This document shows, piece by piece, positions 8,520-31,178 of a stretch of 64,000 nt of DNA (position 1 is the stretch's first letter; every line of letters begins with the position of its first letter). Both the position numbers and the translations under genes were made by a program. The stretch is from assembly GCF_016859125.1 (NCBI RefSeq), contig NZ_CP069338.1, positions 248,001 to 312,000 of the forward strand, read 5' to 3'. The notes beneath the pieces were generated by a model. That model saw only the letters and a list, made by a program, of their open reading frames with translations, searched no databases and was not told the origin of the DNA. The DNA is from Archangium violaceum (GTDB lineage: Bacteria; Myxococcota; Myxococcia; Myxococcales; Myxococcaceae).

Positions 8520-10286
8520 ATGACGACGCACAACCCGACCACGCCCACGCTCCCCGAGGCCCAGCTCGGCCCGGCCGAGAAGCTCCTGGAGCTGGTGCTC
8601 GGTGGCTCCGCGCACCTGTGGCACAACCGCCCGGGCCTGGACGTGAACGGCGTCTGGCATCCCGCGCAGGGCGCCAAGGACACCCTCGTCCGCCGGAGCA
8701 CCCCGGTGAAGCCCGGACTCTTCGTGCCCGCCGCGGTGAAGCTCTACCGCCAGCTGCTCGACATCTACCGGCTCAACACGGACCTGATGGCGCACTTCGC
8801 GTCCTACGCGCTCACGCAGACGGACTGGCGTGACCTCAAGGTGGCCACGTGCGCGCTGATGCTCGTGCAGAACCACTCCGGTCAGCCCGTGCGCGAGGAC
8901 GACGGCTCCATCGCGTTCCTCGACGACGACTTCCGTGCCATCGGCGCGGCCATGCTCCTGCACTACGAGCGCAAGTCCACGCGCATGCTCACGCCCAAGG
9001 CGGTGCTGCGGGTGGCCGAGCTGCTCGAGACGCCGGAGATCGCCCACCTCAACCGCGAGGCCGGTTTCGGTGACCCCGCGTCCCGCAAGCCGCCCCTCGG
9101 CCGGTGGAAGGCCGTGGCCACGAAGTGGCTGCGCGTGCGTGAGCAGAACCTGCCCATGCTCCAGGGCCTGGTGAAGGCCGGCTACAAGGAGACGCTGAAG
9201 AAGATCGCCCGCAAGGCCGGTTACAAGCCGGTGTCGCAGGCCTTCTTCGAGGTGCTCGGCTGGAAGCAGAAGCAGGCGGCCGCGGGCCACCGCTCGGTGG
9301 GGTTGGAGGGGCTGAACCTGGTGAAGCGGGAGCGCTTCGACGGGCTCTCGGAGGCGGAGATCTGCGAGTGGATCGAACGGGAGCGCCTCTCCTTCAAGGA
9401 GGTGGTGGGCCGGCTTCCCAAGGACGTGGGCCTGACGCCGGCCATCATGGCGGCGCTCCTGCCCTCGCTGTCCGACAGGGATCTGCGCATGCTGACGCCC
9501 ACGCTCGAGGAGCTGGGGTTGATGTCCGACCCCGCCATCCGCGCGCGCTGGGAGAAGGCGGTGCAGACGGCGACCGACCAGCGGGCGCTCCACATCGTGA
9601 AGAACGTCCGCAGCCAGGAGCTGAAGGCGAAGCTGGAGGAGGCGAGCGACAATGCGGCGAGGGCCGCGGTGGCGGAGGCGACGGCGGAGACGGACGTGAG
9701 GGTGATGTTCCTCATCGACAAGTCCGGCTCCATGGAGGGCGCCATCGAGCAGTCGAAGGAGGCGCTGTCTCGCATCCTCGCGGGCTTCCCGCTGGAGAAG
9801 CTGCACATCGCGACGTTCGACACGATGGGCACGGTGCTCAAGCCCAAGGCGGCGAGCCGGGCGGCGGTGCAGCACATGCTGCAGGGCATCCAGGCGTCGG
9901 GCGGTACCACGCACGCGGCCGGTGTGCATGCGCTGTACCGGGCGGAGGTGCGGGTGCCGCGGGAGGCGAAGCTCATCGTCATCGTCGTGGGTGACGAGGC
10001 CGGTGAGTCGGGTGAGCAGCTCGCCCGGGCCTTCAACGAGTGCGGCTACAGCGTGGCCGCCATGGCGCTGTTGCTGAGCGTGGTGAGCACGCGGGGCAAC
10101 ACCGTGCGCACGTGCGCGCGGCAGATGCAGGTGCCGTTCAGTGAGGTGTCGGTGGGCCAGTTCGAGGACCCCTACCAGGTCCCCCGTGTGTTGAAGGCGT
10201 TGCTGGACGCGCCGACGGTGCCCGGGGCCAGCCAGTCCGGCTGGGTCGAGCGGGTGATGCGCACGCCGCTGTTGAAGGTGGCGTGA
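8520..10286 (+). CDS. vWA-domain protein with a long helical N-terminus (TROVE/Ro-like layout)
   Basis: In this 588-residue protein the C-terminal part (about 395-560) is a von Willebrand A domain with an intact MIDAS metal site: DKSGSM starting at Asp400, the Thr in SGGTTHAAGV, and the Asp in VVGDEAGE. The first 380 residues are predicted mostly helical without membrane segments. Helical repeats followed by vWA is the layout of TROVE (Ro60/Rsr) RNA-binding proteins, but I cannot confirm TROVE homology by eye. The ATG at 8520 follows GGAGGGCAGCAC. Two genes follow closely on the same strand (17 and 10 base gaps), ending in a JAMM peptidase, so the three probably form an operon. Its partner or RNA is unknown. 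Confidence 0.75.
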   Translation: MTTHNPTTPTLPEAQLGPAEKLLELVLGGSAHLWHNRPGLDVNGVWHPAQGAKDTLVRRSTPVKPGLFVPAAVKLYRQLLDIYRLNTDLMAHFASYALTQTDWRDLKVATCALMLVQNHSGQPVREDDGSIAFLDDDFRAIGAAMLLHYERKSTRMLTPKAVLRVAELLETPEIAHLNREAGFGDPASRKPPLGRWKAVATKWLRVREQNLPMLQGLVKAGYKETLKKIARKAGYKPVSQAFFEVLGWKQKQAAAGHRSVGLEGLNLVKRERFDGLSEAEICEWIERERLSFKEVVGRLPKDVGLTPAIMAALLPSLSDRDLRMLTPTLEELGLMSDPAIRARWEKAVQTATDQRALHIVKNVRSQELKAKLEEASDNAARAAVAEATAETDVRVMFLIDKSGSMEGAIEQSKEALSRILAGFPLEKLHIATFDTMGTVLKPKAASRAAVQHMLQGIQASGGTTHAAGVHALYRAEVRVPREAKLIVIVVGDEAGESGEQLARAFNECGYSVAAMALLLSVVSTRGNTVRTCARQMQVPFSEVSVGQFEDPYQVPRVLKALLDAPTVPGASQSGWVERVMRTPLLKVA

Positions 10287-10302
10287 GAGAGGAGTGGGTG
10301 TC

Positions 10303-11223
10303 GTGGACTACCGGAAGTTCCTCGGGAAGGTGGAGTCGGCGGTGCTGCCCTACTTCGGCGGCGCTTGCGTCGACGCGCCCTCGCGGCGCCTCCGCGTGTC
10401 CACGCCGCCCGCTCCCGGCTGGTGGCGCTTCGACGTGCAGGGGCGCACCGCCACCGCGCGGGAGCCGGCCGGGCCGGAAGGGCTCGACGGGCTCCCGCTC
10501 ATTCGTGGACATCTCTGGGGTACGCGGCTGGTGCGTGAGGGCGCGGTGGCCGAGCCGGTGCAACTCCTCCCCGACGAGGAGCCACCGCGTTTCTCTCCGG
10601 TACGCGCCCGGCGCTGGCACGACGGCACGCTCGTCTTCGAGGCGCTCGAGTTCGAGGGCGAGGCCGAGGGCGGTGCACGCCTCATGCTGGAGGAGGGCCG
10701 GACGCTCGCGGAGGTGAAGGCCGTGCCGGCCTCGCTGCGGGCGGCGTTTGGCTACGCGGTGCTGGAGGGCACCTCGCGCGCGCTCGGCATCCGCTTCTCC
10801 CCCGTCGAGGTGCGAGGCCAGGTGCTGTCCGTGGCCGAGGGAGGTCGTCCCATCGCCGAGGCCCGGCTGCGGGCGCTGGCCACCGAGCGCGCGGTCCACG
10901 CAAGGGGGGTGGACGCACGGCCGCGGAGCGCTCCGCGTCACCAGGAGCGGCAGCCCCAGGGCACCATGCGGGTGGAGCGGGCTCTCGAATCAGCGGGAGC
11001 CCGGCTGCTCGACACGCGGCGGCTGGAGGGCGAGCGGCTCGAGGTGACGTTCGGCTTCATGGGCGAGCGCTTCATCAGCATCGTGGAGGCGGACTCGCTG
11101 CGGGTGGTGGACGCGGGCATCTGCCTCGCGGGGGAGGACCGGCAGGTGACGTTGGAGAGCCTGCCGTCGGTCATACGCGAGGCCATCGAGGACGACGTGC
11201 TGGTCATCACCCGGCACGCGTGA
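10303..11223 (+). CDS. Unrecognised protein between the vWA and JAMM peptidase genes
   Basis: This protein of about 306 residues has no signal peptide or membrane segment. The N-terminal 200 residues are rich in short beta strands and Trp/Arg (WWRFDVQG, RRWHDGTLVFEALEFEG). A basic linker (VDARPRSAPRHQERQP) separates a C-terminal module of about 80 residues with the pattern FGFMGERFISIVEAD - LRVVDAGICLAG - LPSVIREAI. GTG at 10303 is preferred because GAGAGGAG lies 8 bases upstream; the in-frame GTG at 10294 would overlap that ribosome site. The gene sits inside a probable three-gene operon. I looked for an E2-like fold and saw no convincing HxP...C arrangement, so no function is given. Confidence 0.7.
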   Translation: MDYRKFLGKVESAVLPYFGGACVDAPSRRLRVSTPPAPGWWRFDVQGRTATAREPAGPEGLDGLPLIRGHLWGTRLVREGAVAEPVQLLPDEEPPRFSPVRARRWHDGTLVFEALEFEGEAEGGARLMLEEGRTLAEVKAVPASLRAAFGYAVLEGTSRALGIRFSPVEVRGQVLSVAEGGRPIAEARLRALATERAVHARGVDARPRSAPRHQERQPQGTMRVERALESAGARLLDTRRLEGERLEVTFGFMGERFISIVEADSLRVVDAGICLAGEDRQVTLESLPSVIREAIEDDVLVITRHA

Positions 11224-11233
11224 GGGAGCAGCC

Positions 11234-11608
11234 ATGCGGCCACGTGAAGTCTGCCTGCTCATCGGCCGGGACGGGGCGGCGCTGTGGAGCGATGCCTCGG
11301 ACAGCCCCGTGTCGCTGCCGGACTCGCGCGCGCGCTGGGAGGCCATCTGGCGGCTGCGTGACGAGTTGGAGGAGATCGCCCACAGCCACCCCGTGGGGCC
11401 GAGGGCCTTCAGCGCCGAGGACGAGACGACGATGGAGGCACTCACCCTGGCGCTCGGCCGGCCCGTGCGCTTCTCGGTGGTGGCCCCCGACGGCATGGTG
11501 GTGCGCGAGCACGGTGGGGAGCGCATCCTCACCGAGGAGCCCGACTGGGCCCGACGTCTGCGAGCCGAATCGGGGATGCGGCACGCTCAGGACAACGGCC
11601 AGGTGTAG
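11234..11608 (+). CDS. JAMM/JAB-family metallopeptidase (deubiquitinase-like)
   Basis: This 124-residue protein has the complete zinc signature HxHx10D: His50, His52 and Asp63 in HSHPVGPRAFSAED, with the supporting Ser60, and an N-terminal Glu5 in REVCLLIG at the usual catalytic-glutamate position. It is a minimal JAB domain with nothing attached. Relatives remove or mature ubiquitin-like proteins, or cleave cysteine and small modifiers in sulfur-carrier pathways. It starts at an ATG 10 bases after the preceding stop with GGGAG upstream. The last 22 bases overlap the convergent DUF2378-like gene. The nearest ubiquitin-like protein and E1 are 9.2 kb downstream on the same strand. Confidence 0.8.
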   Translation: MRPREVCLLIGRDGAALWSDASDSPVSLPDSRARWEAIWRLRDELEEIAHSHPVGPRAFSAEDETTMEALTLALGRPVRFSVVAPDGMVVREHGGERILTEEPDWARRLRAESGMRHAQDNGQV

Positions 11609-12225
11609 ACCAGGTCGAAGTCCAGGCCCGGCTCCCGCCGACGCTCCACGGAGGCAGACAGGGAGTCGAGCCCGGAGCTCATCTGGAACGCCTTCGTGTA
11701 GATGCCGCGGATCCACAGCGGACCCATCAGCTCCCGCTTGAAGACGATGCGCGCGGAGGAGGGGCCCAACCGCTCGAACCTCCGGTTCCCATACGTGGTG
11801 ACGGCCCGGGTGGAGGCCATCGACAACTCCATGGACTTGAGCACGTCCGAGCCCGTGAGCCGCCGGAATGCCTGGCCCACGGGTGAGCGCTGATAGCTGC
11901 CCGCCAGGAAGATGCCGATCCGCTCCAACACTTCGGGGTAGGAGGCCAGGCCCCGAGCCTCGGCGGCGTTCGCTCCCGCGTCGGTCACGCGCAGCAGCTC
12001 CGCAATGGGGCAGGTGAAGAGCCCAAGCTCCACGGGCCCGGACGCGGCGGCCCGAGCCTCCTCCGCCACCTCGGAACCATAGAGCTGTGAAAAGCCGCCC
12101 AGGGTATCCATGAAAATCTGCCCATGGGTGCGCTCATCGGGCAAGGCAAGCGCAATTCGGCTTCGCACGGCCTCACGCGTATCCATTGACCACAACTTTA
12201 CAACTTGACCACCTGTCACTGCCAT
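11587..12225 (-). CDS. DUF2378-like protein (Myxococcales-restricted family)
   Basis: This 212-residue protein has no signal peptide. It matches the style of the DUF2378/TIGR02265 family, about 200 residues long and found essentially only in myxobacteria: a helical N-terminal half with repeated charged helices and a conserved middle (IGIFLAGSYQRSPVGQAFRRL) before a beta-rich C-terminus (GPLWIRGIYTKAFQMSSG). Function is unknown for the family. The listed start may be too long: the methionine in SMDTREAVRSRIA (residue 14, base 12186) is an alternative. It is convergent with the JAMM gene, with a 22-base overlap of the 3' ends. The family assignment is by resemblance only. Confidence 0.65.
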   Translation of the reverse strand: MAVTGGQVVKLWSMDTREAVRSRIALALPDERTHGQIFMDTLGGFSQLYGSEVAEEARAAASGPVELGLFTCPIAELLRVTDAGANAAEARGLASYPEVLERIGIFLAGSYQRSPVGQAFRRLTGSDVLKSMELSMASTRAVTTYGNRRFERLGPSSARIVFKRELMGPLWIRGIYTKAFQMSSGLDSLSASVERRREPGLDFDLVYTWPLS

Positions 12226-12328
12226 CTGACATCCACCACCCCCACCAACACATCATCCGACACGCGTTGCTCCCGGCTCCGGGTACATCCCGAGGAACAA
12301 GCATCCGCTCGTGCTCTAGGATGAAGCC

Positions 12329-12592
12329 GTGAGCGCGGATCTTCCCGAGGAAAGCGGGCGTACGGACCGTTGGCAGAGCCTGGTGGCGGGGGCCTTCCTG
12401 TTGGAGGAGACCCTGAGCGCGAAGGAGGCAGCGGAGAGCGGGGCGGGCGCGATGGCCCCCACCCTCCGCTATCTGGACAGCCTGCTCGAGGTCTTCCCGT
12501 CACATCTGGATCCACTGGAGGACTTCGAGGGCTATGCCGTCCGCCGCATGGCCCTGGCCCTGCGGCGCGCCCTGGAACAGAGAGGCCGCTGA
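12329..12592 (+). CDS. Small hypothetical acidic protein
   Basis: This 87-residue protein starts at GTG 12329 and ends 22 bases before the convergent DUF2231 gene. It is mainly helical (SLVAGAFLLEETLSAKEAAE, GYAVRRMALALRRALEQ) with no signal peptide, cysteine cluster or membrane segment. Codon use matches the neighbours, which is the main reason to accept it. I recognise no family. It is the only gene between two minus-strand genes and is probably transcribed alone. Confidence 0.55.
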   Translation: MSADLPEESGRTDRWQSLVAGAFLLEETLSAKEAAESGAGAMAPTLRYLDSLLEVFPSHLDPLEDFEGYAVRRMALALRRALEQRGR

Positions 12593-12614
12593 GCGCGCCT
12601 GACGGCGGTGGTGC

Positions 12615-13271
12615 TCACACCGGACGCAGCTCGGAACGGACCTCACCCGGCGTGGCCTGCTGCTGCGCCAGCTTCTCCTCGACGACCGTCATTCCGAACG
12701 CGCTCGGATCGAGCTGCTCGTCACCCGAGAAGACGCGACGGGCACGGCCCAGCAACCACCCGAGTCCCTTCACCGCGTCGCGAAGAATCCGCATGGGCGC
12801 CTGACGCGAGGCCAGCGGAGGGCTGAGCTGATCGAGCTCCGCGTCCTTCATCGTCAGTTCCTTCACGCCCACGCCGTGCGAGTACACCATCTCGCCGCCC
12901 AACCAGCCGGTGTAGGTGGCGAAGGCGAAGGAGCCCAGCCCCAACAGGCCGGAGATCAGCGACGAGCGGTGGGTGGTGCGCCACGCGGCGACCCCGAACG
13001 CGCTCAGCACGATGACCACGTTGCCCAGGCCGTGCAGGAACATCATGTCCCGGGTGTGCCGATCCGCCTTCACCTCCTGCGAGGCGGCCATACCAGCCAG
13101 GCCCGCCATCAACCCGCTCGCCGCGGTGGTCCACCACAACGTCCGGGCCGCCGTGTCCAGCTTCCGGTTCCCGGTGAGCGCCGCCGTCAGGTCGACGACC
13201 ACGGTGGACGGCAGCAGCGCCAGCGGAGCGTGGATCAACGTCGGGTGCAGCTCGTGTACGCGCATCTGCAT
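12615..13271 (-). CDS. DUF2231-family membrane protein
   Basis: This 218-residue protein has four hydrophobic segments in the first 150 residues. The opening MRVHELHPTLIHAPLALLP is the hallmark of the DUF2231 family, with HP-x-x-H in the first membrane helix; such His pairs have been suggested to bind metal or haem. The second pattern, FLHGLGNVVIVL, is also typical. The last 70 residues form a soluble, charged tail. ATG at 13271 is chosen because GAGGAGGG sits 7 bases upstream; the longer reading to 13358 would add 29 low-complexity Arg/Gly residues. Its role is unknown. Confidence 0.8.
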   Translation of the reverse strand: MQMRVHELHPTLIHAPLALLPSTVVVDLTAALTGNRKLDTAARTLWWTTAASGLMAGLAGMAASQEVKADRHTRDMMFLHGLGNVVIVLSAFGVAAWRTTHRSSLISGLLGLGSFAFATYTGWLGGEMVYSHGVGVKELTMKDAELDQLSPPLASRQAPMRILRDAVKGLGWLLGRARRVFSGDEQLDPSAFGMTVVEEKLAQQQATPGEVRSELRPV

Positions 13272-13462
13272 GCAATTCCCTCCTCGTCCTGGGAACCTTG
13301 GTGCGCGCCTCCCGGCGGACAACCCGCCCCACCGGCGTCCCACGGCTCCCACTCCCAATCAGAGGGGCACTCCGGGGAGGAGCAGGCGAGGCGGCATTCC
13401 CCTTGTCGAAGTGGCCGGACATGGGCAGACCACGGGCCACGACACGCTCGAGGGAGGACTCG

Positions 13463-13678
13463 GTGAAGCCGACGGGACTGATGTTGATGGTTGCGGGGGC
13501 GCTCCTCGTCGTCATCGGGCTGCTGATGTACTCGGGTGCGCTGTCCTGGTTCGGCCGCCTGCCAGGCGACCTGCGCTGGGAGGGCGAGCACACCCGGGTC
13601 TACGTCCCCTTCGCCTCCATGTTGCTGCTCTCGGTGCTGCTCAGTCTGATCGCCTTCGTCCTGCGGCGTCTCCTGTAG
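13463..13678 (+). CDS. DUF2905-family small membrane protein
   Basis: This 71-residue protein has two transmembrane helices around a conserved loop, GRLPGDLRWEGEHTRVYVP, the signature of DUF2905 (normal length about 70). The GTG start at 13463 follows AGGGAGG by 5 bases. Longer in-frame starts upstream (from 13298) give a basic, low-complexity leader that overlaps the ribosome site, so they are rejected. It is divergent from the DUF2231 gene across 191 bases. Function is unknown; both neighbours are small membrane proteins. Confidence 0.8.
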   Translation: MKPTGLMLMVAGALLVVIGLLMYSGALSWFGRLPGDLRWEGEHTRVYVPFASMLLLSVLLSLIAFVLRRLL

Positions 13679-13765
13679 CGCGCGCGTCGCATCACGGCCT
13701 CGCGATGCTTACGCATTCGTCGGGTGGAGCTCACTTCGCCCATCCAACGCCTGGAGGAACACCGA

Positions 13766-14248
13766 ATGTCCAGCGAGTCACCGCGCCCGCCACGGGAGGC
13801 CGAACAGCAGAACACGGCCGAGATGATCGCCCCCACCGCCAACCCACCCGGACAGGCCCCCGCCTCCGTGACGCCCACGGGCGAAGCGGGTGCCCGACGC
13901 AAGATGGGCAAGTCAGGGCCGCCGGGGCCCGCCAGGAAGGGGCGCACCGTCGCCAAGCGCAAGCCCGAGAAGAAGCGCCCAGCCCCCACCGGCGAGAAGA
14001 GGGCGGCCGCGAGCCGCAAGAACACGCGGGCCACCACCCATACCTTCCGCGAGAAGGAGGGCTGGAGCACCGAGCCCAAGGTGGGCGGCCGCAAGCCCTC
14101 GGCCTCGCAGAAGAAGAGAGCCACCAAGAAGACCGGCCCCGCCCGGAAGTCCCTGGCCGGACGCGCCGCCGCGAAGACGACGACGGTCGCCAAGCGTGCG
14201 CCAGCCGCCGCCCGACGTGCAGTGAAGCGCGCCACCGGCCGCCGCTAG
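13766..14248 (+). CDS. Lys/Arg/Ala/Pro-rich, histone H1-like basic protein
   Basis: This 160-residue protein has an acidic, proline-rich N-terminal 45 residues followed by about 115 residues dominated by Lys, Arg, Ala and Pro with repeated KKR, KRA and RKS motifs. The tail (TTTVAKRAPAAARRAVKR) resembles the C-terminal domain of eukaryotic histone H1 and bacterial H1-like proteins, which bind and condense DNA without sequence specificity. The ATG at 13766 follows TGGAGGAAC. Composition alone supports a nucleic-acid-binding role; no folded domain is visible except perhaps a short central segment (THTFREKEGWSTEPKVGGRK). Confidence 0.7.
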   Translation: MSSESPRPPREAEQQNTAEMIAPTANPPGQAPASVTPTGEAGARRKMGKSGPPGPARKGRTVAKRKPEKKRPAPTGEKRAAASRKNTRATTHTFREKEGWSTEPKVGGRKPSASQKKRATKKTGPARKSLAGRAAAKTTTVAKRAPAAARRAVKRATGRR

Positions 14249-14264
14249 GCCGCCTCCCCTCCCC

Positions 14265-16034
14265 TCACGGCCTGGCGAACGGAGCGGCCTGGAGCCGCCT
14301 CGACTCGAGCACCCCACGGAACGCGCTCTCCTTCCCGCTGGAGACGCACACCGCGTGGCCATCGAGCCGGCCGCACACCACCCGCTCCGGATGGCGCAGG
14401 AACGGCGCCAGATACGCGGGGTGCACCACGTAGACGGTGTCGGGCTGGAACTCGCCGCGCTCGGCTTCCTGCTGGAGCGCGGTGCAGTAGGCCTGGGCCG
14501 CCGCGGGGTCCACGCGCGCGAGGTACGCGCTGTTGAAGGTCATCCCGAGCGAGGCCGCGTGATACGCGAACATGGGGCTGAAGGGCGCGCCACGGCCGGG
14601 GTAGGGACAACCGCGGCCATTGCCGTCGTGGAGCTGCGGCGGGAACAGCACGAGGTGGCGGTAGTCGTCCTTCATCCGCCGCCAGTCGGGGGAGTGCAGG
14701 CCGTTCCAGGACAGGCTCTGGAAGCGCTCCCGCTTCACCACCCGGCTGAGGTCGAACACCTGCACGCCCACCGCGAGGGCGAGCAGCCCGATGGCCACCC
14801 ACGGCCGGCGGCGCCAGGCCCCCAGCACGAGCGCGAGGGCTCCCGTCAACAGCGCGTAGTGCAGCGGCCAGATGAAGCGCCCCGAGGAGCGGAACGGCTC
14901 CACGAGCCGCATCACCGGCTGGTAGAGCGCCTGGAGATCCAACACCAGCCGGCCCATGACGGTGATGCGCGAGGAGAACGCATACACGGCGAGCAGCAGA
15001 CAGCACACCGCCAGGGGCACCACGCGCTTCCAGTGAGGCGTCCAGTCCGAGCGCCACCGCCACCGCGCGAGCAGCGCGGAGCCCACGCCCACCCCGAGCA
15101 GCAGCAGAACGCCCACGCCCAGGTAGCCGAAGCCCTCGCCCTGGACGCGCGCCGCGATGGGCAGGGCGGGCAGCAGCCGGGACCAGTCCAGGGGGTTGAT
15201 GAGCGAGAGCACGTCCGAGGAGACATGGCCGAAGCCCTCGATGCCGGACGGGGTGCGCGTGCCCAGGTAGCCGAAGAGCCAGAACAGGGCCAACAGGAGC
15301 GCCACGAGCCCCCCCAGGCCGAGCCCCAGCCCGCGCCAGGAGAGCGTCCCGTCCACCCACCGCAGCCGCACCAGCGCCGCCGCGCCGAGCACCACCGCCA
15401 TGGCCGACAGGTAGGGGTGGATGGTGGCGCTCAGCCCCACCAGGAGGAACGTCACCGCGAGGGCTCGACGGGCCGCGGCGGCGTCCGGCCAGTCGCGCAG
15501 GTTCACCCAGAGCAGCCCCAGGACGAGCCAGTGCGCGCACAGGCTCTCGTGGCCCATGCGCCACAACAGCACGGGCGCGAGCGCGAAGAGGATGCCCCCG
15601 AGCAACTGCGCGAGCCGGTGGGAGGTGAACAACGCCGTCAGCCGGCTGCCCAGGAAGCCCTGGAGGAAGAAGCAGAGCGCGAGCCAGAGGCCCACGTATT
15701 GGAAGGGAAAGGGCAGCACGCCCGCGAAGGGGCGCAGGAGCAGGGCCACCAGGGGCGTGGAGTCCGTGAAGCCCACGGTCGTCCCGAGCGGGTGGGCCAG
15801 GCCGGGCACGGCACCGAGGGGGAAGCGCAGGGGCTCGTTGCGGAAGAAGAGCCAGCCCACCAGGTGCGTGGACCAATCCCCCTCCATCAACCAATCCACC
15901 TTCTGGGGATTGAGCGCCCGGTCGCCGTGGGCCTGGATGAACCAGAACACCCCGAAGGCACCCGCCAGCAGCGCGGCCACGTACTCCCGGCCCCGAGCCC
16001 ACATGTTCTTCACGGCCCCCATCGCGTCACGCAT
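14265..16034 (-). CDS. Multi-pass membrane protein (DUF6311-like, GT-C style)
   Basis: This protein of about 589 residues has roughly 11-12 hydrophobic helices in the first 480 residues and a soluble C-terminal part of about 110. An early periplasmic loop reads GDWSTHLVGWLFFRNEPLRF, then HPLGTTVGFTDSTPL, the pattern I associate with DUF6311, a family of polytopic proteins resembling lipid-linked-sugar glycosyltransferases (GT-C fold). The C-terminal domain carries RDRGAPFSPMF-like aromatic loops near the membrane. ATG at 16034 is preferred over the upstream start at 16136, whose 34 extra residues are a basic low-complexity leader. It may act on surface polysaccharide or lipoprotein; this is inference. 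Confidence 0.65.
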   Translation of the reverse strand: MRDAMGAVKNMWARGREYVAALLAGAFGVFWFIQAHGDRALNPQKVDWLMEGDWSTHLVGWLFFRNEPLRFPLGAVPGLAHPLGTTVGFTDSTPLVALLLRPFAGVLPFPFQYVGLWLALCFFLQGFLGSRLTALFTSHRLAQLLGGILFALAPVLLWRMGHESLCAHWLVLGLLWVNLRDWPDAAAARRALAVTFLLVGLSATIHPYLSAMAVVLGAAALVRLRWVDGTLSWRGLGLGLGGLVALLLALFWLFGYLGTRTPSGIEGFGHVSSDVLSLINPLDWSRLLPALPIAARVQGEGFGYLGVGVLLLLGVGVGSALLARWRWRSDWTPHWKRVVPLAVCCLLLAVYAFSSRITVMGRLVLDLQALYQPVMRLVEPFRSSGRFIWPLHYALLTGALALVLGAWRRRPWVAIGLLALAVGVQVFDLSRVVKRERFQSLSWNGLHSPDWRRMKDDYRHLVLFPPQLHDGNGRGCPYPGRGAPFSPMFAYHAASLGMTFNSAYLARVDPAAAQAYCTALQQEAERGEFQPDTVYVVHPAYLAPFLRHPERVVCGRLDGHAVCVSSGKESAFRGVLESRRLQAAPFARP

Positions 16035-16138
16035 CGGCCCCACCCTTAGCGGAAGAGAGGGGTGGGCGTCTCGCCCTGGCTGGGCGTTCAGACGCCTAGC
16101 GGGTGGACGAGCACGAGCGGTCTTGAGATGGTCCACCC

Positions 16139-17080
16139 ATGCGAATTGCTCGTCTGACCCCCCTCTTGACGTTGGCGTTCGCGACTCCCGCGGTCGCCAC
16201 CCGCCCCCCCGTGAAGCCCGCCATGACGAAGTCCGCCGAAACGAAAGCCCCCGACACGAAGCAATCCGAGCTCGAAGCGGAGACGCGCGCCTGGCACCAG
16301 AAGCGCATCGCCAATCTCACGAGCGAAGAAGGTTGGCTCTCCCTGGTGGGCCTGCACTGGCTGAAGGAAGGGGACAACCGCTTCGGCTCCGCCCAGGACA
16401 ACGATCTCATCTTCCCCGCCAACACGCCGGCGCACATCGGCACCCTCGCGAACAAGGGCGGCAAGGTGACACTGACCGTGCAGCCGGGAACCCCCCTCAC
16501 CCGGGCCGGCCAGCCCTTCACCGGAGGAGAGGTGGGTGACAGCGAGACCGAGAAGGACGTGCTCATGCTGGGCTCGCTGCGCTTCTTCCTCATCCGCCGG
16601 GGCGATCGGATCGGCGTCCGGGTGAAGGACACGGAGGCGCCCGCGCGCAAGCAGTTCCACGGCATTCCCACCTGGCCGGTGAGCACGGCCTGGCGCATCG
16701 AGGGCCGCTTCGAGCCGGCGGCCACCCCGCGGAAGCTGGCGGTGCCCACGGTGCTCGGCACGGTGGAGGAGGAGACCTCGCCCGGCACCATCGTCTTCAC
16801 GGTGAACGGCCAGGAGTACCGGTTGGATCCGGTGCAGTCGCCCGGCTCGAATCAGCTCTTCATCATCTTCGCGGACCTCACCAACCGCTCGGAGTCCTAC
16901 GGGGCGGGGCGCTTCCTGTACGCGGATCCGCCCAAGGACGGGAAGGTGGTGCTGGACTTCAACCGGGCCTACAACCCCCCGTGTGCCTTCTCTCCCTATG
17001 CGACGTGCCCGCTGCCGCCGCCGCAGAACCGGCTGAAGCTGCGCGTGGAGGCCGGCGAGAAGCGCTACGGCGACCACTGA
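16139..17080 (+). CDS. DUF1684-family exported protein
   Basis: This 313-residue protein has an N-terminal signal peptide (MRIARLTPLLTLAFATPAVA, about 21 residues). The DUF1684 signatures are clear: EEGWLSLVGLHWLKEGDNRFGS near the start and the C-terminal NRAYNPPCAFSPYATCPLPP. The family is widespread, about 200-300 residues long, without known function; the paired cysteines near the C-terminus are conserved. The gene begins 104 bases from the divergent DUF6311-like gene and ends 32 bases before the convergent kinase. Confidence 0.85.
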   Translation: MRIARLTPLLTLAFATPAVATRPPVKPAMTKSAETKAPDTKQSELEAETRAWHQKRIANLTSEEGWLSLVGLHWLKEGDNRFGSAQDNDLIFPANTPAHIGTLANKGGKVTLTVQPGTPLTRAGQPFTGGEVGDSETEKDVLMLGSLRFFLIRRGDRIGVRVKDTEAPARKQFHGIPTWPVSTAWRIEGRFEPAATPRKLAVPTVLGTVEEETSPGTIVFTVNGQEYRLDPVQSPGSNQLFIIFADLTNRSESYGAGRFLYADPPKDGKVVLDFNRAYNPPCAFSPYATCPLPPPQNRLKLRVEAGEKRYGDH

Positions 17081-17112
17081 GCCCGTGACATGACGTCCAC
17101 GAGGCTGGCCGC

Positions 17113-18240
17113 TCAGCTGGCCTCGTCCTCCACGAGGCAGGGCAGCCTCACGAAGAAGGTGGTGCCCTGACCCAGGGTGCTCCGCACGGACAGGGAGCCC
17201 CCCAGGACCCGCGTCAGCTCCTTGGCGAGCACCAGCCCCAGCGAGGTGCCTCCCACCTTGCGTCCCCGGGAATCCTCCGCCCGGCGGAAGTCCTCGAAGA
17301 GGAAGGGGAGCTGCTCCTCCGGAATGCCCTCCCCCGTGTCCTCGACGATGAGGAGGGCGTCGTGGCCCTCGGCGCGCGCGGTGAGCGCGATCCTTCCGGA
17401 GGCGGTGGCCTGGACCGAGTAGCCCAGCAGGTTGAGCAACACCTGCCGCAGCTTCAGCTCGTCCGTCCGCAGCAGGTACACCTGCTCGGCCAGCTGGGTG
17501 GTGAGCGTGAGCGCCTTGCCCTCAAGCGTCTCGCGCACCGTGCCGACACACTCCTCGGTCAGCTCCCGGAAGTTCACCAGCTCGGTCACCACATCCGTCC
17601 GGCCCGCCTCGAGCTTGATGAGCGCCAGGACGTCGTTGATGAGCGAGAGCAGCGCCTGGGCGTTCTTCTTCACCATGCCCAGGTCATGCAGGCCGTTCGG
17701 CGTCAGGTGGCTGCCCTCCTCGAGCATCAGGAGATCGCAGTAGCCGATGATGCCGTTGAGGGGCGAGCGGATGTCGTGGTTGAGGTCGGACAGGAACTCG
17801 CTCTTGCGCTGGCGCCGCTCCTCGGCCTGAAGGACCTGGCGGCGCTCGACGGCCCGCCGCACCTCCCGCTGGACCTCCAGCACCACCTGCGCCAGCCGCC
17901 CCATGTCCAGGTAGCCCTCGGTCCCCGCCGCCAGGGCCGCGCTCAGCTCCGCCTCCTCCCACCGAGGCGTGAGGACGAGGAAGGCCAGCGAGGGCGCCTT
18001 CTCGCGCAGCAGCGGCGCCGCCTCCCGGAAGCCCAGCCCCGTCACCTCCGAGCCACACACGGCCAGGTCCCAGGAATGCGCCAACGCCGCCGTCAGCGCC
18101 TCCGCCGTGCACACCCGCTCCGCGAAGACGTCCAGTCCCGTTCCCCGCAGTCGCTCCAACACCTGTCGCGTCTCGCTCTCGCCCGCCACGAAGAGCAGGC
18201 GCGCGGCGTCTCCTTGGCTCTCCGGACCTGGACTGCTCAT
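17113..18240 (-). CDS. Degenerate receiver - histidine kinase protein
   Basis: This 375-residue protein has an N-terminal receiver fold (about 14-125) that has lost its chemistry: the acidic pair is replaced (LFVAGESE), the phosphoacceptor position is Gly63 (DLAVCGSEV), and the usual Lys of YLxKP is Met (GYLDMGRL). A coiled segment leads to a DHp helix with a good H-box (His155 in DLNHDIRSPLNG). In the ATPase domain the N-box, normally NLLGNAVK, reads NLLGYSVQ, so the Mg-ATP-binding Asn is Tyr274. The G1 (DTGEGIPEEQ) and G2 (GTSLGLVLAKEL) boxes remain. It may be a weak kinase, phosphatase or scaffold. No partner regulator is adjacent. Confidence 0.85.
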   Translation of the reverse strand: MSSPGPESQGDAARLLFVAGESETRQVLERLRGTGLDVFAERVCTAEALTAALAHSWDLAVCGSEVTGLGFREAAPLLREKAPSLAFLVLTPRWEEAELSAALAAGTEGYLDMGRLAQVVLEVQREVRRAVERRQVLQAEERRQRKSEFLSDLNHDIRSPLNGIIGYCDLLMLEEGSHLTPNGLHDLGMVKKNAQALLSLINDVLALIKLEAGRTDVVTELVNFRELTEECVGTVRETLEGKALTLTTQLAEQVYLLRTDELKLRQVLLNLLGYSVQATASGRIALTARAEGHDALLIVEDTGEGIPEEQLPFLFEDFRRAEDSRGRKVGGTSLGLVLAKELTRVLGGSLSVRSTLGQGTTFFVRLPCLVEDEAS

Positions 18241-18331
18241 CCCTCAGTGCCTCCTGAACGCGAGGACCGTCAGCATCGTATTCCCGTGAAAGCCCGAGCA
18301 GACAGCGAAATGCGTGTCGAGTCCAGCGCCC

Positions 18332-18367
18332 CCCATCGAGCCCATTTCGAACCCATATTGGACCCAT
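18332..18367. promoter_or_regulatory. Four phased CCCAT motifs in a divergent promoter region
   Basis: CCCAT occurs at 18332, 18341, 18352 and 18363, spaced 9, 11 and 11 bases, about one helical turn each. Flanking bases are partly shared (CGAGCCCATTTCGAACCCAT). The run lies between the degenerate kinase and the Gcr-family gene and could be a tandem operator. No regulator is assigned. Confidence 0.35.
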
Positions 18368-18464
18368 TGAAGATGAACATGGAGCCACCACGGCTGCTCG
18401 CCGCGAGGTGGGTCCGCGAGTGGACAGGGGCTGCCCGCGCAGCAGGCAGGCCCCAAGGGCGCAT

Positions 18465-18491
18465 TTTGTTCCTTGTTGATTTGAGAACAAA
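18465..18491. promoter_or_regulatory. Inverted repeat TTTGTTC-N13-GAACAAA upstream of the Gcr-family gene
   Basis: There are perfect 7-base arms in an AT-rich patch that ends 14 bases before the ATG at 18506. The size and symmetry fit a dimeric repressor site. It could instead act in the mRNA leader. It is seen in sequence; the role is inferred. Confidence 0.35.
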
Positions 18492-18505
18492 CTTTCCTAC
18501 TGCCC

Positions 18506-20698
18506 ATGTTCACCCATCCCGTTCGCTCGACGCGCTCCGAACCCGGCACCCACCACGTCCCCACGCTGGAACAACTGCTGGCCCGCTACCCGAGCACACC
18601 CGAGACGGAGGAGCGCCTGCGCGAGCTGCATGCGCTGGTGACCTCGGCCCCGCCCCGAGCACCACTCGCCGAGCGCATGGACTGGCTGGAGGAACTGGTC
18701 CGCTGGCTCCGAGCACCGGGGGCCACGCCGTCGCGGCGCGGGCGGTTGGCGCCGGTGGAGTCCACGGGCTCGGCGCGCCTGCGGCTGCTGGCGGAGGTGC
18801 TCGGAGAGACCCCCGCGTGGTGCGAGGCCCTGCGGACCGTCGTCGCGTCGGTGCTCGCCGAGACCTCCGCGCTGGGATTGCTCGCCGAGCCGGGCCTGTC
18901 GGCCGGACGAGGCCTGCTGGGAGAGGCCCTGGCACGGCTGGGCCGCCGGATGGTGCCGCCCGCCCCCGACGAGCGGGCGCTGGCACCGCTGGTGTGGCGC
19001 CTGTTTCCAGGAGAGGAGGGACGGGCCTGGCTGGACGAGCTGTCGGTGGAGCCCGTGGCCGCCCTCTGTGCCGAGCTGGGGGCGTCGACCTTCGCCCCGT
19101 TGAGGGCGGCGGTGGAGGACGCGGTGTCGGTGCTCGCCTTGCGCGCGACCAACCTCGGACTGGCGAGCGACGTGCTGGCGCGGCTGCCTCCGATGCCCCT
19201 CGAGCAGACCGCCTTCATCCGCCTGCCTCGGGCATGCGAGGCGCTGCGGGACGCGGTGCGTGAGGGCGCCGATCGCCTCGGGGTGGAGCGGCAACGTGAG
19301 GCCTGCGCCGAGACCCTCGCGGGGTGCCGTGCCGCCGCGCAGGTGGTGCTGAACCACCTGCGTGCGCACGCGGTGGACACCGATCTCGTCTACCGGCTCG
19401 AGCTGCTCGGCCACACGTTGGATCGATTGGAGGCACTGCTGTGGCTGCTCGCCCCGGAGCGCGCGGGAGCCACGCCGGGTGCCGCCACCCGTCTGCTCTC
19501 CACCCTGGTCCGGGCGTACGAGGAGGAGCGGAGCCTGGCCGGGCTGCTGCGAGGCAGCGTGCGCTGCATCTCGCGGCGCATCTTCGAGCACACCGGTGAG
19601 GTGGGCCGCCACTACATCACCACCAGCGAGGACGAGTACCACCGGCTGGTGAGCGCGGCGGCGGGAGGAGGGCTGCTCACGGCGGGAACCGCGGCGCTCA
19701 AGCTGGCCATCACCTTCGCCGCGCTGCCGCTCTTCTTCGAGGGGCTGGCGGCGGCCACCAACTACGCGCTCAGCTTCACGCTCATCCAGTTGCTCGGCTT
19801 CACGCTGGCCACCAAGCAGCCCTCCATGACGGGCGCGGCCCTGGCGGCGTCGCTGGACGTGAAGGCCCGGGACAAGGAGATGAGTGGACTGGTGGAGCGG
19901 CTGGCCTGCATCACCCGCTCCCAGCTGGCCTCGGTCTTCGGCAACCTGGGCGCGGTGGTGGCCACGGTCTCGCTGGTGGGGCTCGGCATCCAGGTGTTCC
20001 AGGGGCGGCACCTGCTGGAGCAACGCGAGGCGGAGTACGTGGTGCGCTCGCTGCACCCCTTCAAGAGTGGGACGCTCTTCTTCGCCGCCCTGACGGGAGT
20101 GCTGCTGTGGTGCTCGAGCATCTTCGGGGGCTGGCTGGAGAACTGGGTGCACTACCAGCGCCTGCCGGAGGCACTCGCGCGCCACCGGGGCCTCATCGGC
20201 CTGCTGGGCGAGACGCGGGCAGGCTGGCTGGGTGAAGCGCTCGCGCGCAACGCGTGTGGCCTGGGAGCCAATGTCAGCCTGGGCCTGTTGCTGGGCATGA
20301 CCCCCGCGGTGGGCCGCTTCTTCGGCCTGCCGCTGGACGTGCGGCACGTCACCCTGAGCGCCGGCACGCTCGCCTTCGCGGGCACGGCGCTGGGGCCCGA
20401 GCAGCTGATGGAGCCGGACTTCCTCTGGGCGGTGATGGGGCTCGTCCTGGTGGGAGTCATCAACCTGCTGGTGAGCTTCTCGTTGGGGCTCTCCGCGGCG
20501 GTGCGAGCGCGAGGCCTGGCGCCGGTGGGCTTCCTGAGCGTGGTCCTCGTGGTCTTCGCCGGAGGCCTCCGCACCCTGTCCGGGTTCATCCTCCCGCCCC
20601 GCCCGCTGCTGCCAGCTCAACGCCCGAGCTCGCCCCAGGGCGTCCGCTCGGCGGCACGTGCGTGCGCCCCCTTGCGTGGGGGACACGAGCACGGGTGA
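18506..20698 (+). CDS. Gcr-family 'site-specific recombinase' membrane protein (PF10136 type)
   Basis: In this 730-residue protein the first 390 residues are soluble and helical. A conserved block follows: RRIFEHTGEVGRHYIT, then AAAGGGLLTAGTAALKLAITF and LATKQPSMTGAALAA. About seven membrane helices span residues 390-710. This is the pattern of the family named after gonococcal Gcr and annotated as a site-specific recombinase; the several membrane helices make that activity doubtful, and I regard the biochemical role as open. The start is ATG 18506 with a weak ribosome site. It lies 265 bases from the divergent degenerate kinase. The C-terminal 30 residues (GGHEHG end) are low-complexity. Confidence 0.75.
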   Translation: MFTHPVRSTRSEPGTHHVPTLEQLLARYPSTPETEERLRELHALVTSAPPRAPLAERMDWLEELVRWLRAPGATPSRRGRLAPVESTGSARLRLLAEVLGETPAWCEALRTVVASVLAETSALGLLAEPGLSAGRGLLGEALARLGRRMVPPAPDERALAPLVWRLFPGEEGRAWLDELSVEPVAALCAELGASTFAPLRAAVEDAVSVLALRATNLGLASDVLARLPPMPLEQTAFIRLPRACEALRDAVREGADRLGVERQREACAETLAGCRAAAQVVLNHLRAHAVDTDLVYRLELLGHTLDRLEALLWLLAPERAGATPGAATRLLSTLVRAYEEERSLAGLLRGSVRCISRRIFEHTGEVGRHYITTSEDEYHRLVSAAAGGGLLTAGTAALKLAITFAALPLFFEGLAAATNYALSFTLIQLLGFTLATKQPSMTGAALAASLDVKARDKEMSGLVERLACITRSQLASVFGNLGAVVATVSLVGLGIQVFQGRHLLEQREAEYVVRSLHPFKSGTLFFAALTGVLLWCSSIFGGWLENWVHYQRLPEALARHRGLIGLLGETRAGWLGEALARNACGLGANVSLGLLLGMTPAVGRFFGLPLDVRHVTLSAGTLAFAGTALGPEQLMEPDFLWAVMGLVLVGVINLLVSFSLGLSAAVRARGLAPVGFLSVVLVVFAGGLRTLSGFILPPRPLLPAQRPSSPQGVRSAARACAPLRGGHEHG

Positions 20699-20714
20699 AG
20701 CGCCGGGTTCGACG

Positions 20715-20740
20715 CTCCGGTCAGGAACCCGCGTCCCTCC
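20715..20740 (+). promoter_or_regulatory. Upstream block shared with the vWA operon (copy 2)
   Basis: CTCCGGTCAGGAA is joined directly to CCCGCGTCCCTCC, 43 bases before the ubiquitin-like ATG. Copy 1 at 8462-8495 carries the same two parts with an 8-base insertion and one G fewer. The 13-base second part is identical in both. Confidence 0.45.
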
Positions 20741-20783
20741 ACGTCCCCACGACCCGGGTCCCCATGACCCAAGGAGACGCGAG

Positions 20784-21029
20784 ATGGCAACGCTGAACAT
20801 CACCTTCAACGGCCTGTCCTCGGACCTGCCCCTGGAGCTGGACGGCCACGTGACGGACGTGGACGTGCGGCGCATCGCGGTGGAGGTGGTGCGCGCGGGC
20901 GGGGTACCGGGGCTGCACATCGCCCACCTGCCCGAGGACACCTTCAACCACTACGTGGTGGACCGGTTCCGCGGGCCCCGGGGCGAGGAGCGCATCTACC
21001 TGCGACCCAAGGTGCCCTTCGGGGCATGA
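20784..21029 (+). CDS. Probable ubiquitin-like (beta-grasp) protein paired with an E1-like gene
   Basis: The order of predicted elements in this 81-residue protein fits a beta-grasp fold. A hairpin (TLNITFNG ... LPLELDG) leads to a long helix (TDVDVRRIAVEVVRAG), a strand (LHIAHLP), and two closing strands (NHYVVDRF, EERIYLRPKV). It ends PFGA rather than the Gly-Gly tail of classical modifiers, so conjugation, if any, would differ or need trimming. ATG 20784 is chosen because AAGGAG lies 7 bases upstream; a longer reading from 20658 crosses this site. It ends 12 bases before the E1/ThiF-like gene. The fold call is by pattern and depends much on the neighbour. Confidence 0.55.
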   Translation: MATLNITFNGLSSDLPLELDGHVTDVDVRRIAVEVVRAGGVPGLHIAHLPEDTFNHYVVDRFRGPRGEERIYLRPKVPFGA

Positions 21030-21041
21030 GGAGGGCCCACC

Positions 21042-21620
21042 ATGCGCATCGTCTTCTGCGGGGTGGGGGCCATCGGCTCCACGGCGGCGGTGTTGTGCCG
21101 CAACCTGGAGGCCACGCTCGTCTTCATCGACTTCGACCGGGTGGAGTCGAAGAACCTGCTGGCGCAGGCCTTCGTGAAGCCGTCGGTGGGGAAGAACAAG
21201 GCGGAGGCGCTGAAGCTCCAGCTGCTCAACCTCCACGGGGTGAAGGCCGAGGCCTTCGGCGTGCGGGTGACGCGCGACAACGTGGCGGCGCTGTGCGGGA
21301 GCGCGGACCTGCTGGTGGACTGCTTCGACAACCAGGCGAGCCGATTGCTGCTGAGCGGATTCGCGCGGGAGGCGAACAAGCCGCTGGTGCACGCAGCGCT
21401 GGCGGCGGACGGCACCTTCGGACTGGTGCGCTGGGACGAGCGCTTCGTCCCGGACGCCGAGGACACCGAGGGACAGGCCACGTGCGAGGGAGGCGCCCAC
21501 CTGCCCCTCATCGGCCAGCTCGGCGCAACGCTCGCGCGGGTGGTGCAGGACTTCGCGAAGCACGGCACCCGCCGCGACGCGATGGTGAGCCTCGTGGCGG
21601 TGACACCGACCTCCGCATGA
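21042..21620 (+). CDS. E1/ThiF/MoeB-like adenylating enzyme (minimal Rossmann domain)
   Basis: In this 192-residue protein the nucleotide loop is GVGAIGST near the start, followed by DFDRVESKNLLAQAF, equivalent to the DxDxVxxSNLxRQ motif of E1-like enzymes but with Ala where the catalytic Arg usually sits. The Lys of VGKNKAEAL and the Asp of DCFDNQASRLLL are conserved. A possible catalytic Cys is in ATCEGGAH. These enzymes adenylate the C-terminus of ubiquitin-like or sulfur-carrier proteins. The start lies 12 bases after the ubiquitin-like gene, so the two are almost certainly co-transcribed. No thiamine or molybdopterin gene is nearby. The missing Arg leaves activity uncertain. Confidence 0.75.
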   Translation: MRIVFCGVGAIGSTAAVLCRNLEATLVFIDFDRVESKNLLAQAFVKPSVGKNKAEALKLQLLNLHGVKAEAFGVRVTRDNVAALCGSADLLVDCFDNQASRLLLSGFAREANKPLVHAALAADGTFGLVRWDERFVPDAEDTEGQATCEGGAHLPLIGQLGATLARVVQDFAKHGTRRDAMVSLVAVTPTSA

Positions 21621-30679: not shown

Positions 30680-30760
30680 GGGGACGTAGAGCGTTACGGA
30701 GACGCGCCGGCCTGTAGAGCCGGAGCCATGGCCCGCTGGGTTCGACTCCCAGCGTCCCCA
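30680..30760 (+). tRNA. tRNA-Tyr(GTA)-like
   Basis: 81 bases. Acceptor GGGGACG/CGTCCCC with discriminator A. Anticodon arm CCGGC-CTGTAGA-GCCGG gives anticodon GTA, and the T-arm is CTGGG-TTCGACT-CCCAG. The variable region is extended (about 12 bases with a short GCC/GGC stem), as expected for bacterial tRNA-Tyr. The D-arm is weak (GCG/CGC) and set off by four bases instead of two. No encoded CCA is seen. Confidence 0.7.
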
Positions 30761-30841
30761 CTCGCAGCGCGCCGTACGCGGCTCTCTGACAACTGAATCG
30801 CAGTGGTGAAGCGCCGCCTGCCCACACGAGGGGCGGCACAC

Positions 30842-30912
30842 GCCTCCGTAGCTCACGGGTAGAGCATCCGCCTCTTAAGCGGACGGTGAGGGTTCGAGTC
30901 CCTCCGGAGGTA
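30842..30912 (+). tRNA. tRNA-Lys(CTT)
   Basis: 71 bases. Acceptor GCCTCCG/CGGAGGT (one G-T pair), D-arm GCTC/GAGC, anticodon arm TCCGC-CTCTTAA-GCGGA (anticodon CTT), T-arm GAGGG-TTCGAGT-CCCTC, discriminator A. All four stems are intact; the D-loop is short. CCA is not encoded. Confidence 0.85.
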
Positions 30913-30926
30913 CTCATGCAACACAT

Positions 30927-30998
30927 TCCACAGTGGCTCAATGGAAGAGCGGGCGGCTGTTAACCGCCAGGTTGGGGGTTCGAGTCCCTCCTGTGGAG
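30927..30998 (+). tRNA. tRNA-Asn(GTT)
   Basis: 72 bases. Acceptor TCCACAG/CTGTGGA, D-arm GCTC/GAGC, anticodon arm GGCGG-CTGTTAA-CCGCC (anticodon GTT), T-arm GGGGG-TTCGAGT-CCCTC with one G-T pair, discriminator G. It is 14 bases after the Lys tRNA. A T at position 1 is unusual for a bacterial tRNA-Asn. Confidence 0.85.
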
Positions 30999-31004
30999 CA
31001 TCAC

Positions 31005-31078: not shown

Positions 31079-31084
31079 TGTTTC

Positions 31085-31157: not shown

Positions 31158-31178
31158 TTCGAAGGAGCTCCCCAACCC

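Follow-up and report, generated by a model that had tools for sequence, protein, structure and literature searches.

A conserved five-gene set of a probable ubiquitin-like conjugation system, split over two clusters in Archangium violaceum and linked to tRNA genes in myxobacteria and large phages

Conjugation systems for ubiquitin-like (Ubl) modifiers have been described in prokaryotes in several forms. In the sections of Iyer, Burroughs and Aravind 2006 that treat it, operon type 6d comprises an E1 enzyme, a separate JAB peptidase with an extra N-terminal domain, a small Ubl with conserved C-terminal glycine, an alpha-helical gene, and an E2-like protein with conserved cysteine that lacks the usual E2 histidine (PMC1779556). 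The BIL system (BilABCD), as outlined in its description, also unites Ubl, E1, E2 and JAMM peptidase in one operon, with JAMM trimming the Ubl to expose a glycine; BilA has two Ubl domains and BilD is a two-part E1 with a Cys domain (PMC11354881). FtsH-type vWA-MoxR ternary systems, as far as the relevant sections of Kaur et al. 2020 (PMC7159879) describe them, are reported from multicellular bacteria including deltaproteobacteria and place a vWA protein together with JAB, E1, Ubl and E2; they also have MoxR, a double FtsH, a RING E3, EAD1 effectors and a fusion of Ubl with E2. Here, we analyzed a stretch of 64,000 nucleotides from Archangium violaceum (contig NZ_CP069338.1, positions 248,001 to 312,000 of the forward strand; in the following called the window) that encodes a vWA protein, a protein labelled U309, a JAMM peptidase, a Ubl and an E1-like enzyme, together called the five-gene set (Table 1).

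All five open reading frames (ORFs) lie on one strand in two groups, vWA-U309-JAMM at 8520-11608 and Ubl-E1 at 20784-21620, separated by 9 kb, just as an initial annotation made from the sequence alone had placed them; U309 was the unknown protein of that annotation. The set is probably of the prokaryotic Ubl-conjugation kind, with type 6d as the nearest operon type among those in the sections mentioned; common to both are an E1, a JAB encoded separately, a small Ubl whose C-terminal Gly is conserved, and a (here predicted) E2-like protein that has a conserved Cys and lacks the usual His. As in bacterial Ubl-conjugation systems in general, it includes a beta-grasp modifier with C-terminal Gly (PFG or AFG, 58/58 sequences), a JAB peptidase with complete catalytic set and an E1 adenylation domain with Cys. 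In contrast to type 6d as described there, a vWA protein belongs to the set, the E2-like domain follows an OB-like part, and Ubl and E2-like protein are unmatched in Pfam; a word search of the text of PMC1779556 found neither vWA nor Myxococcus. Compared with BIL as described (PMC11354881), the window has a Ubl of a single 81-aa domain instead of a two-domain BilA, a minimal 192-aa E1, a vWA protein and tRNA linkage. MoxR, double FtsH, RING, Ubl-E2 fusions and EAD1 effectors were absent from the five-gene unit and from the 18 Pfam-scanned window ORFs; at other loci the neighbours were only clustered, and whole genomes were not searched. The literature searched, which left out most subscription journals, described neither the five-gene set and its partners (vWA, OB-E2) nor a Ubl cascade on phages nor the tRNA link, and an earlier mention is possible. 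We consider it rather probable that the five genes form a single reversible Ubl-conjugation system, the operon of which is split in this lineage; the targets of the cascade are probably tRNA-related.

For the distribution of the set, 97 genomes of the phylum, 35 of which belong to the window's family, were searched with the window proteins. The Ubl was found in 27 of them with 68-80% identity within the family and is therefore no chance ORF. E1 gave weak matches in 87 genomes and strong ones (E≤5.4e-38) in 27, the vWA protein strong matches (E≤4.8e-122) in 27 of the 34 genomes with any match (identity 71-82% within the family, 45% in the distant genome G002), and JAMM was present in 26. The strong vWA, Ubl and E1 matches fall in the same 27 genomes, namely 26 of the 35 family members plus G002, where JAMM was not seen in a single-sequence search that a divergent copy could escape. 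Within the family, vWA, JAMM, Ubl and E1 are all strongly matched in 26 genomes, and nine show no match to any of the four. The co-occurrence that the initial annotation had proposed as a check is thus present. Six genera of the family possess the set and six lack all four searched genes; kinship lowers the independence of these counts. U309, searched for in the 27 genomes and not in the other 70, adjoins the vWA gene in all 27, the window included.

A scan of 84,980 species' genome contigs with a vWA profile yielded 72 loci, most of them labelled as myxobacteria or Deltaproteobacteria; other labels stand on L154, L163, L164, L171, L174 and L180. The last, labelled Comamonas sp. KCTC 72670, bears a Myxococcus-type locus, and this label is probably wrong. 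All five genes are visible in 30 loci, always in the order vWA-U309-JAMM-Ubl-E1: 16 are compact five-gene operons (15 loci of the chromosomal clade in the vWA tree described below, plus L184) and 14 are split, with 2.8-7.9 kb from JAMM to Ubl. The other 42 show fewer than five genes, mostly because contig or flank ends cut them off; real departures from the full set within the available sequence are L119, L156, L170, L171 and L183. In 19 family genomes retrieved as a single stretch, the two clusters are 4.3-10.7 kb apart on one strand; in G008 and G028 the distance is about 21 kb, and in G070 they lie on two contigs. Hyalangium (L119) has neither U309 nor JAMM between vWA and Ubl and keeps both together outside this 21.8-kb locus, hence the five genes can remain a set though separated. 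Since contiguous operons exist elsewhere, the two clusters of the window represent one system, which bears out the split toolkit assumed initially. Together with vWA and U309, the JAMM, Ubl and E1 genes make up a single conserved set. Among the 40 largest neighbour clusters listed, no sixth gene was common to more than a few distant loci.

The 81-residue modifier was predicted as beta-beta-alpha-beta-beta with a floppy end (mean predicted local distance difference test score, pLDDT, 89.8), in agreement with the beta-grasp fold suspected at the outset. Structure matches obtained with VIA-align include MoaD (5mpo_B, Z 5.5, root-mean-square deviation (rmsd) 2.7, 65 residues aligned), ubiquitin (5oxh, Z 5.3; 2.9, 60) and ISG15 (Z 5.0; 3.1, 60), but also PI3K and GB1 domains; Z values below 8 are middling. 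The 50 matches listed are mostly what we take to be beta-grasp or look-alike folds; a fold missing from such a list is not thereby excluded. With Foldseek alone the model matched nothing at E≤0.001, and no Pfam or NCBIfam family rose above noise. Near the C-terminus, RPK[VT][PA]FG is present in 58/58 distinct sequences, followed by a tail of 0 residues in 8, 1 in 10, 2 in 29 and more in 11 sequences (maximum 61), the longer tails being unrelated in sequence; the PFGA end noted initially for the window is one such case. An invariant Gly with a free variable tail resembles a processed Ubl precursor that is trimmed to the glycine.

The candidate for this trimming is the JAMM peptidase. Its catalytic motif is intact in 86/86 distinct cores, and in the window the full active site claimed by the initial annotation was confirmed as Glu5 plus HSHPx7SxxD, with a Prok-JAB score of 24.1 bits against a cut-off of 25. 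In three loci (L170, L182, L183) no JAMM was found between U309 and Ubl, and all three Ubls stop exactly at the Gly, as compared with 5/55 in the remaining loci; the chance of drawing three of three from the 8 in 58 is 56/30856 = 0.0018 if kinship is ignored. L170 and its near relative L144, which has JAMM and the tail CL, differ in both features. Because JAMM-less loci carry tailless Ubls, JAMM would be the enzyme that matures the Ubl.

In a profile search of the PDB, the closest solved relatives of the E1 were Uba4 and MoeB, and the ThiF match (Table 1) agrees with its first assignment. C148 in TCExGxHLP aligns on a Cys of MoeB, presumably the position of the catalytic Cys of Uba4/MOCS3, and TCExG is found in 66/66 sequences. 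The Ala at the site of the usual catalytic Arg, pointed out initially for the window, is a general trait, as this position is S in 38, A in 27 and G in 1 of these. Against the PRTRC_ThiF model the E1 scored 28.8 bits, far from the cut-off of 144.75.

Sulfur-carrier Ubls (ThiS/MoaD/Urm1/TtuB) end in Gly-Gly, and Urm1 and TtuB serve both as sulfur carrier and as conjugated modifier. The pairs TtuB/TtuC and Urm1/Uba4 share with our set a Ubl, a minimal E1 and a tRNA context; the set differs in its FG end, in the JAMM and the E2-like Cys protein within the operon and in having no thiolase. The main rival explanation is therefore a sulfur-carrier pathway for tRNA thiolation of the Urm1-Uba4 or TtuB-TtuC type, in which a Ubl thiocarboxylate would feed a tRNA-modifying enzyme and the linked tRNAs would be the substrates. 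The nearest solved structures of the E1, the tRNA genes beside the cassette and OB-like structure matches for part of U309 speak for such a pathway. We nevertheless rate it as unlikely, as the five conserved genes include neither thiouridylase nor rhodanese, the 40 largest neighbour clusters listed offer no widely common sixth gene, and JAMM and an E2-like Cys protein are unnecessary for sulfur transfer. The Phe-Gly end in place of Gly-Gly, without exception in 58/58 Ubls, is at odds with a sulfur carrier and weighs against conjugation as well.

The initial annotation had found no visible E2, which is probably wrong, as the C-terminus of U309 appears to be an E2/RWD-like domain. In the AlphaFold2 model (pLDDT 82, predicted template modelling score, pTM, 0.54), an N-terminal all-beta part is followed by helices and, at the C-terminus, by a helix, a four-strand meander (strands 237-273) and another helix. 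Residues 60-127 matched largely OB folds. The C-terminal region matched FANCL (Z 4.6, rmsd 4.0, 80 aligned) and Ctf19 (Z 4.4; 3.5, 67), in both cases over stretches which we take to be RWD folds, cousins of E2. Past the last strand, a Cys in G[IVLM]C[LI] occurs in 61/61 ORFs, counted among those in which a pattern recognized the following helix and not all distinct. Local profile alignment of U309 with ten myxobacterial Prok-E2_B proteins, which were detected in 10 of 193 genomes searched, set Cys on Cys in 29 gap-free columns with a score of 18.8; control profiles of JAMM, Ubl and E1, run against an earlier build of the U309 profile, scored 14.8, 12.8 and 7.9. U309 measures 309 to 455 aa as a whole, owing to a linker of very variable length, for example in L094 and L112, that joins the helical part to the E2-like domain.

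Comparison of the predicted structure with E2 folds, as proposed initially, gave an E2/RWD-like topology and the RWD matches, and Foldseek returned nothing for the model at E≤0.001. Neither did a search of Pfam or of PDB sequences match U309 to an E2 family, so that an identification of E2 by sequence or by Foldseek was rejected. Further points tell against an E2: the same region also matches DsbC (Z 4.5; 5.0, 53) and a designed protein (Z 4.2; 4.5, 65), the RWD matches have middling Z values, a conserved HPN is missing, and the alignment with Prok-E2_B is weak (Prob 1.5%, P 0.033) and was not found in global mode. Alternatively, U309 could carry a structural Cys domain, with the Ubl acting non-covalently as regulated subunit of a vWA complex; no UBC protein was matched significantly by either sequence or fold, which, like the E1 without the usual Arg, would suit such a complex. 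It appears quite unlikely to us in view of the Cys in all 61 scored ORFs with its gap-free alignment on the Prok-E2_B Cys, the conserved Gly and variable tail of the Ubl, and the tailless Ubls of loci in which no JAMM was found. Taken together, several individually weak pieces from sequence and model make it the better bet that the C-terminal domain of U309 is the 'missing' E2.

Ro60/Rsr are TROVE-vWA ribonucleoproteins, and the initial annotation had called the vWA protein a vWA/TROVE-like partner. The vWA part of this name holds (Table 1), and the TROVE part is weak. PF05731 gave no match at E≤1 for the window protein and none at E≤0.001 in its genome (G000), and a profile search of the PDB with the vWA protein did not return Ro60. 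Whether the vWA part was included or not, the N-terminal half aligned with four TROVE proteins in one and the same register, residues 197-382 falling on 195-384; by itself this half scored 21.3 against the TROVE profile, compared with 17.8 for a reversed control, and 2/30 block shuffles also reached 21.3. With no match in the PF05731 and PDB searches and a profile alignment that is at most suggestive, membership in TROVE was rejected, and the helical N-terminal part is possibly a divergent TROVE-like module. With Ro60/Rsr the protein would then share a co-linear helical module plus vWA, in addition to the tRNA context; it differs in the missing PF05731 and Ro60 matches. We know of no Ubl genes that accompany known TROVE proteins. 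TROVE has been reported from jumbo phages (PMC7824862).

When the vWA protein was compared with 50,697 phage records by tblastn, a single match at E≤1e-15 was obtained, Virus Rctr197k (197 kb; 37.7% identity over 97%). A scan of IMG/VR added ten contigs of 12-529 kb, five of them at least 200 kb (199.6 kb counted as such), so that six of the 11 viral records are contigs of 197-529 kb. The whole cassette in identical order is present on ten of the 11, with L200 and L201 carrying the same one; the eleventh, L193, shows vWA only, and its contig stretch ends shortly afterwards. Among the viral cassette sequences listed, the motifs of JAMM, E1 and the E2-like Cys are conserved, as is the end of the Ubl, with tails of 0-61 residues. 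The terminase profile phrog_2 matched 6/10 viral records, one weakly and with stops, and also 11/14 control genomes; the gp23 capsid profile matched 1/11, a seventh record, and the terminase family PF03237 none of 11. The annotation of Rctr197k includes terminase-like and head genes, and the shorter contigs L195-L197 matched no terminase or capsid hallmark profile. The E1 profile also picked out a further viral contig, L203, by a ThiF-like protein distinct from the E1 of the set; the other four genes are absent from the 9.8 kb examined.

In a vWA tree of 47 rows, a branch with 100/100 support separates ten viral rows and L181-L184 from 33 rows including the window. L181-L184 are short contigs in Myxococcota metagenome-assembled genomes, and L181-L183 bear tRNAs beside the cassette. 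As these three group with viral copies and carry tRNAs by the cassette, they may be phage contigs, in which case Myxococcota are the likely phage hosts.

The viral copies also bear on the possibility of a dedicated BIL-like anti-phage system that would tag virion proteins, with phage copies acting as decoys or inhibitors. Ubl, E1, E2 and JAMM are likewise the parts of BIL in the description cited above (PMC11354881), and the patchy presence in 26/35 family genomes would suit defence. We regard this explanation as very improbable: phages bear the whole cassette with intact motifs, not a decoy; chromosomal copies group largely by lineage in the vWA tree (not compared with a species tree); and the vWA protein matched 0 of 72,556 plasmid records at E≤1e-15, by which carriage on plasmids was rejected too. 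Assignment to a known defence system by PADLOC also failed, as four of the five proteins were unmatched and the E1 matched generic E1-E2 models only.

The reading that the targets are tRNA-related rests on the position of the set beside tRNA genes. For the region downstream of E1, 27 stretches (26 family genomes and Hyalangium) of 3.3-18.5 kb each were surveyed. tRNAs occur in 20 of them, with 20 in G093, 25 in Hyalangium and otherwise 1-9 per stretch, and they share the strand of E1 except for one overlapping prediction in L115. Upstream of vWA, within 3 kb, a tRNA was called in 9/67 loci of the chromosomal clade, co-oriented in 9/9, compared with an expectation of 1.11 at the density of G000 (P 2.6e-6, ignoring kinship and the densities of other genomes); in L156 and L165, which are among the nine, the called tRNA has no proper anticodon. 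In or beside the viral cassettes there are 41 tRNAs in L192, 22 in L198, 18 in L202, 14 in L200/L201, 7 in L199, 3 in L193 and 2 in L197. An HNH relative stands beside array tRNAs in 10/27 downstream stretches, window included, and near tRNAs in phage-clade loci as well. That co-oriented tRNA genes lie beside the set time and again, in bacteria as well as in large phages, suggests a tRNA-related target or trigger.

The tRNAs themselves are unusual. Those of the window array are 57-77% identical to same-anticodon tRNAs elsewhere in the genome and 73-93% to array tRNAs of other genomes. G000 has 72 tRNA matches, and for 19 of the 25 Hyalangium array tRNAs it contains a same-anticodon tRNA at 79-100% identity, the remaining same-anticodon copies, where present, being 53-81% identical. 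Hyalangium holds this second set in one array (L119 16176-18395), whereas in G000 it is scattered over five sites, with 6 tRNAs in the window array, 7 at 3.08 Mb (L243), 3 at 1.58 Mb (L245), 2 at 0.92 Mb (L246) and 1 at 1.52 Mb (L266). In myxobacteria these tRNAs form a second, divergent set with some 19-25 members, of which the window array is a part. Ordinary bacterial Leu tRNAs have a long variable arm. The array Leu tRNAs lack it and measure 74-77 nt in 18/18 cases; Leu copies elsewhere in G000 measure 82-86 nt in 5/7, and the other two (76 nt) are members of the second set. With the Hyalangium array as query at E≤1e-16, a cut set after the list had been viewed, the matches listed include 24/26 family genomes with the cassette and 1/9 without it (G079); other families reach 3.6e-20 via single tRNAs.

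Several observations limit the tRNA argument. No tRNAs were found at the viral loci L194-L196, and the link is not universal, with none in 7/27 stretches downstream of E1. For G075, G083, G086 and G087, which are among these tRNA-less stretches, array-like matches lie on the same strand at a greater distance downstream (about 48, 16, 40 and 26 kb), and in some of these genomes such matches occur elsewhere too. Large phages often carry tRNA arrays, and there the linkage may reflect shared storage. A derivation of the second set from phage arrays was considered and is unsupported: of 79 phage tRNAs, 35 are nearer to the Hyalangium array and 42 nearer to the main set.

The analysis shows the content and order of the genes, their co-occurrence, the conservation of catalytic residues, the predicted folds, the copies on phages and the tRNA linkage; from these we infer the following chemical steps and biological role for the favoured conjugation system. 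The JAMM peptidase would trim the Ubl tail and expose ...PFG. E1 would adenylate the glycine and then hold the Ubl as thioester on Cys148, from where it would move to U309, onto Cys277 of the E2-like domain. The OB-like N-terminal part of U309 may bind RNA, and the vWA protein would bring the target to which the Ubl is joined; JAMM could take the Ubl off again. A possible role would be to protect or manage the spare tRNA set while ordinary tRNAs are attacked. According to the relevant sections of a published study, phage tRNAs rescue phages from tRNA-depleting defences, which makes a role in tRNA protection reasonable, not demonstrated (PMC11555353). As a more specific and rather doubtful proposal, the module of Myxococcota and large phages might use an RNA-binding vWA scaffold and an OB-fused E2 to tag tRNA-bound proteins or tRNA, and so sustain translation when ordinary tRNAs are cut.

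The features of the window are collected in Table 1. The start of U309 is probably a GTG at 10303, as judged by comparison. In a Pfam scan of the window proteins U309 and Ubl had no match, and the other three genes of the set matched vWA, Prok-JAB (below cut-off) and ThiF. Between the two clusters, 5/9 scanned ORFs had Pfam matches (DUF2378, DUF2231, DUF1684, DUF6311, histidine kinase). Immediately before the Ubl gene, at 18506-20698, a protein of the PF10136 'site-specific recombinase' family is encoded (E 8e-175). A tetrahydrofolate (THF) riboswitch match at 14595-14683 remained below threshold (30 bits, gathering score 36; E 0.0055). A search of 11550-11800 for a consensus promoter or terminator found none.

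Table 1. Five-gene set and tRNA-associated features of the window. MIDAS, metal ion-dependent adhesion site.
Feature	Coordinates	Strand	Evidence
vWA protein, 588 aa: helical N-terminal part and vWA domain with intact DxSGS MIDAS	8520..10286	+	Pfam VWA_2 4.8e-9
U309: N-terminal all-beta/OB-like part, helices, predicted C-terminal E2/RWD-like domain with conserved Cys277	10294..11223	+	AlphaFold2 model
JAMM/JAB metallopeptidase, 124 aa	11234..11608	+	Prok-JAB 3.6e-5, slightly below cut-off
Ubl modifier, 81 aa, C-terminus RPKVPFG-A	20784..21029	+	beta-grasp model, structure matches, conserved end
E1-like adenylating enzyme, 192 aa, Cys148 in TCExGxHLP	21042..21620	+	ThiF 1e-20
Six-tRNA array (Tyr, Lys, Asn, Pro, Phe, short Leu); association only	30680..31253	+	ARAGORN
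HNH nuclease gene right behind the tRNA array; association only	31280..31822	+	HNH 1.6e-15, HNH_5 2.7e-15

Prokaryotic Ubl cascades inform the origin and earliest function of ubiquitin, and the family described here has a one-domain minimal E1, a single Ubl, a JAMM peptidase, a vWA protein and what appears to be an E2 joined to a fold of the OB type. Large phages carry the complete cassette, and among Myxococcota it is widespread, Myxococcus as a model genus included. A separate puzzle is posed by the short-armed leucine tRNAs of the second set, and the tRNA linkage offers a testable class of targets. If the more specific proposal made above is true, no Ubl system dedicated to the supply of tRNAs and no complete Ubl cascade on phages would, to our knowledge, have been known before.

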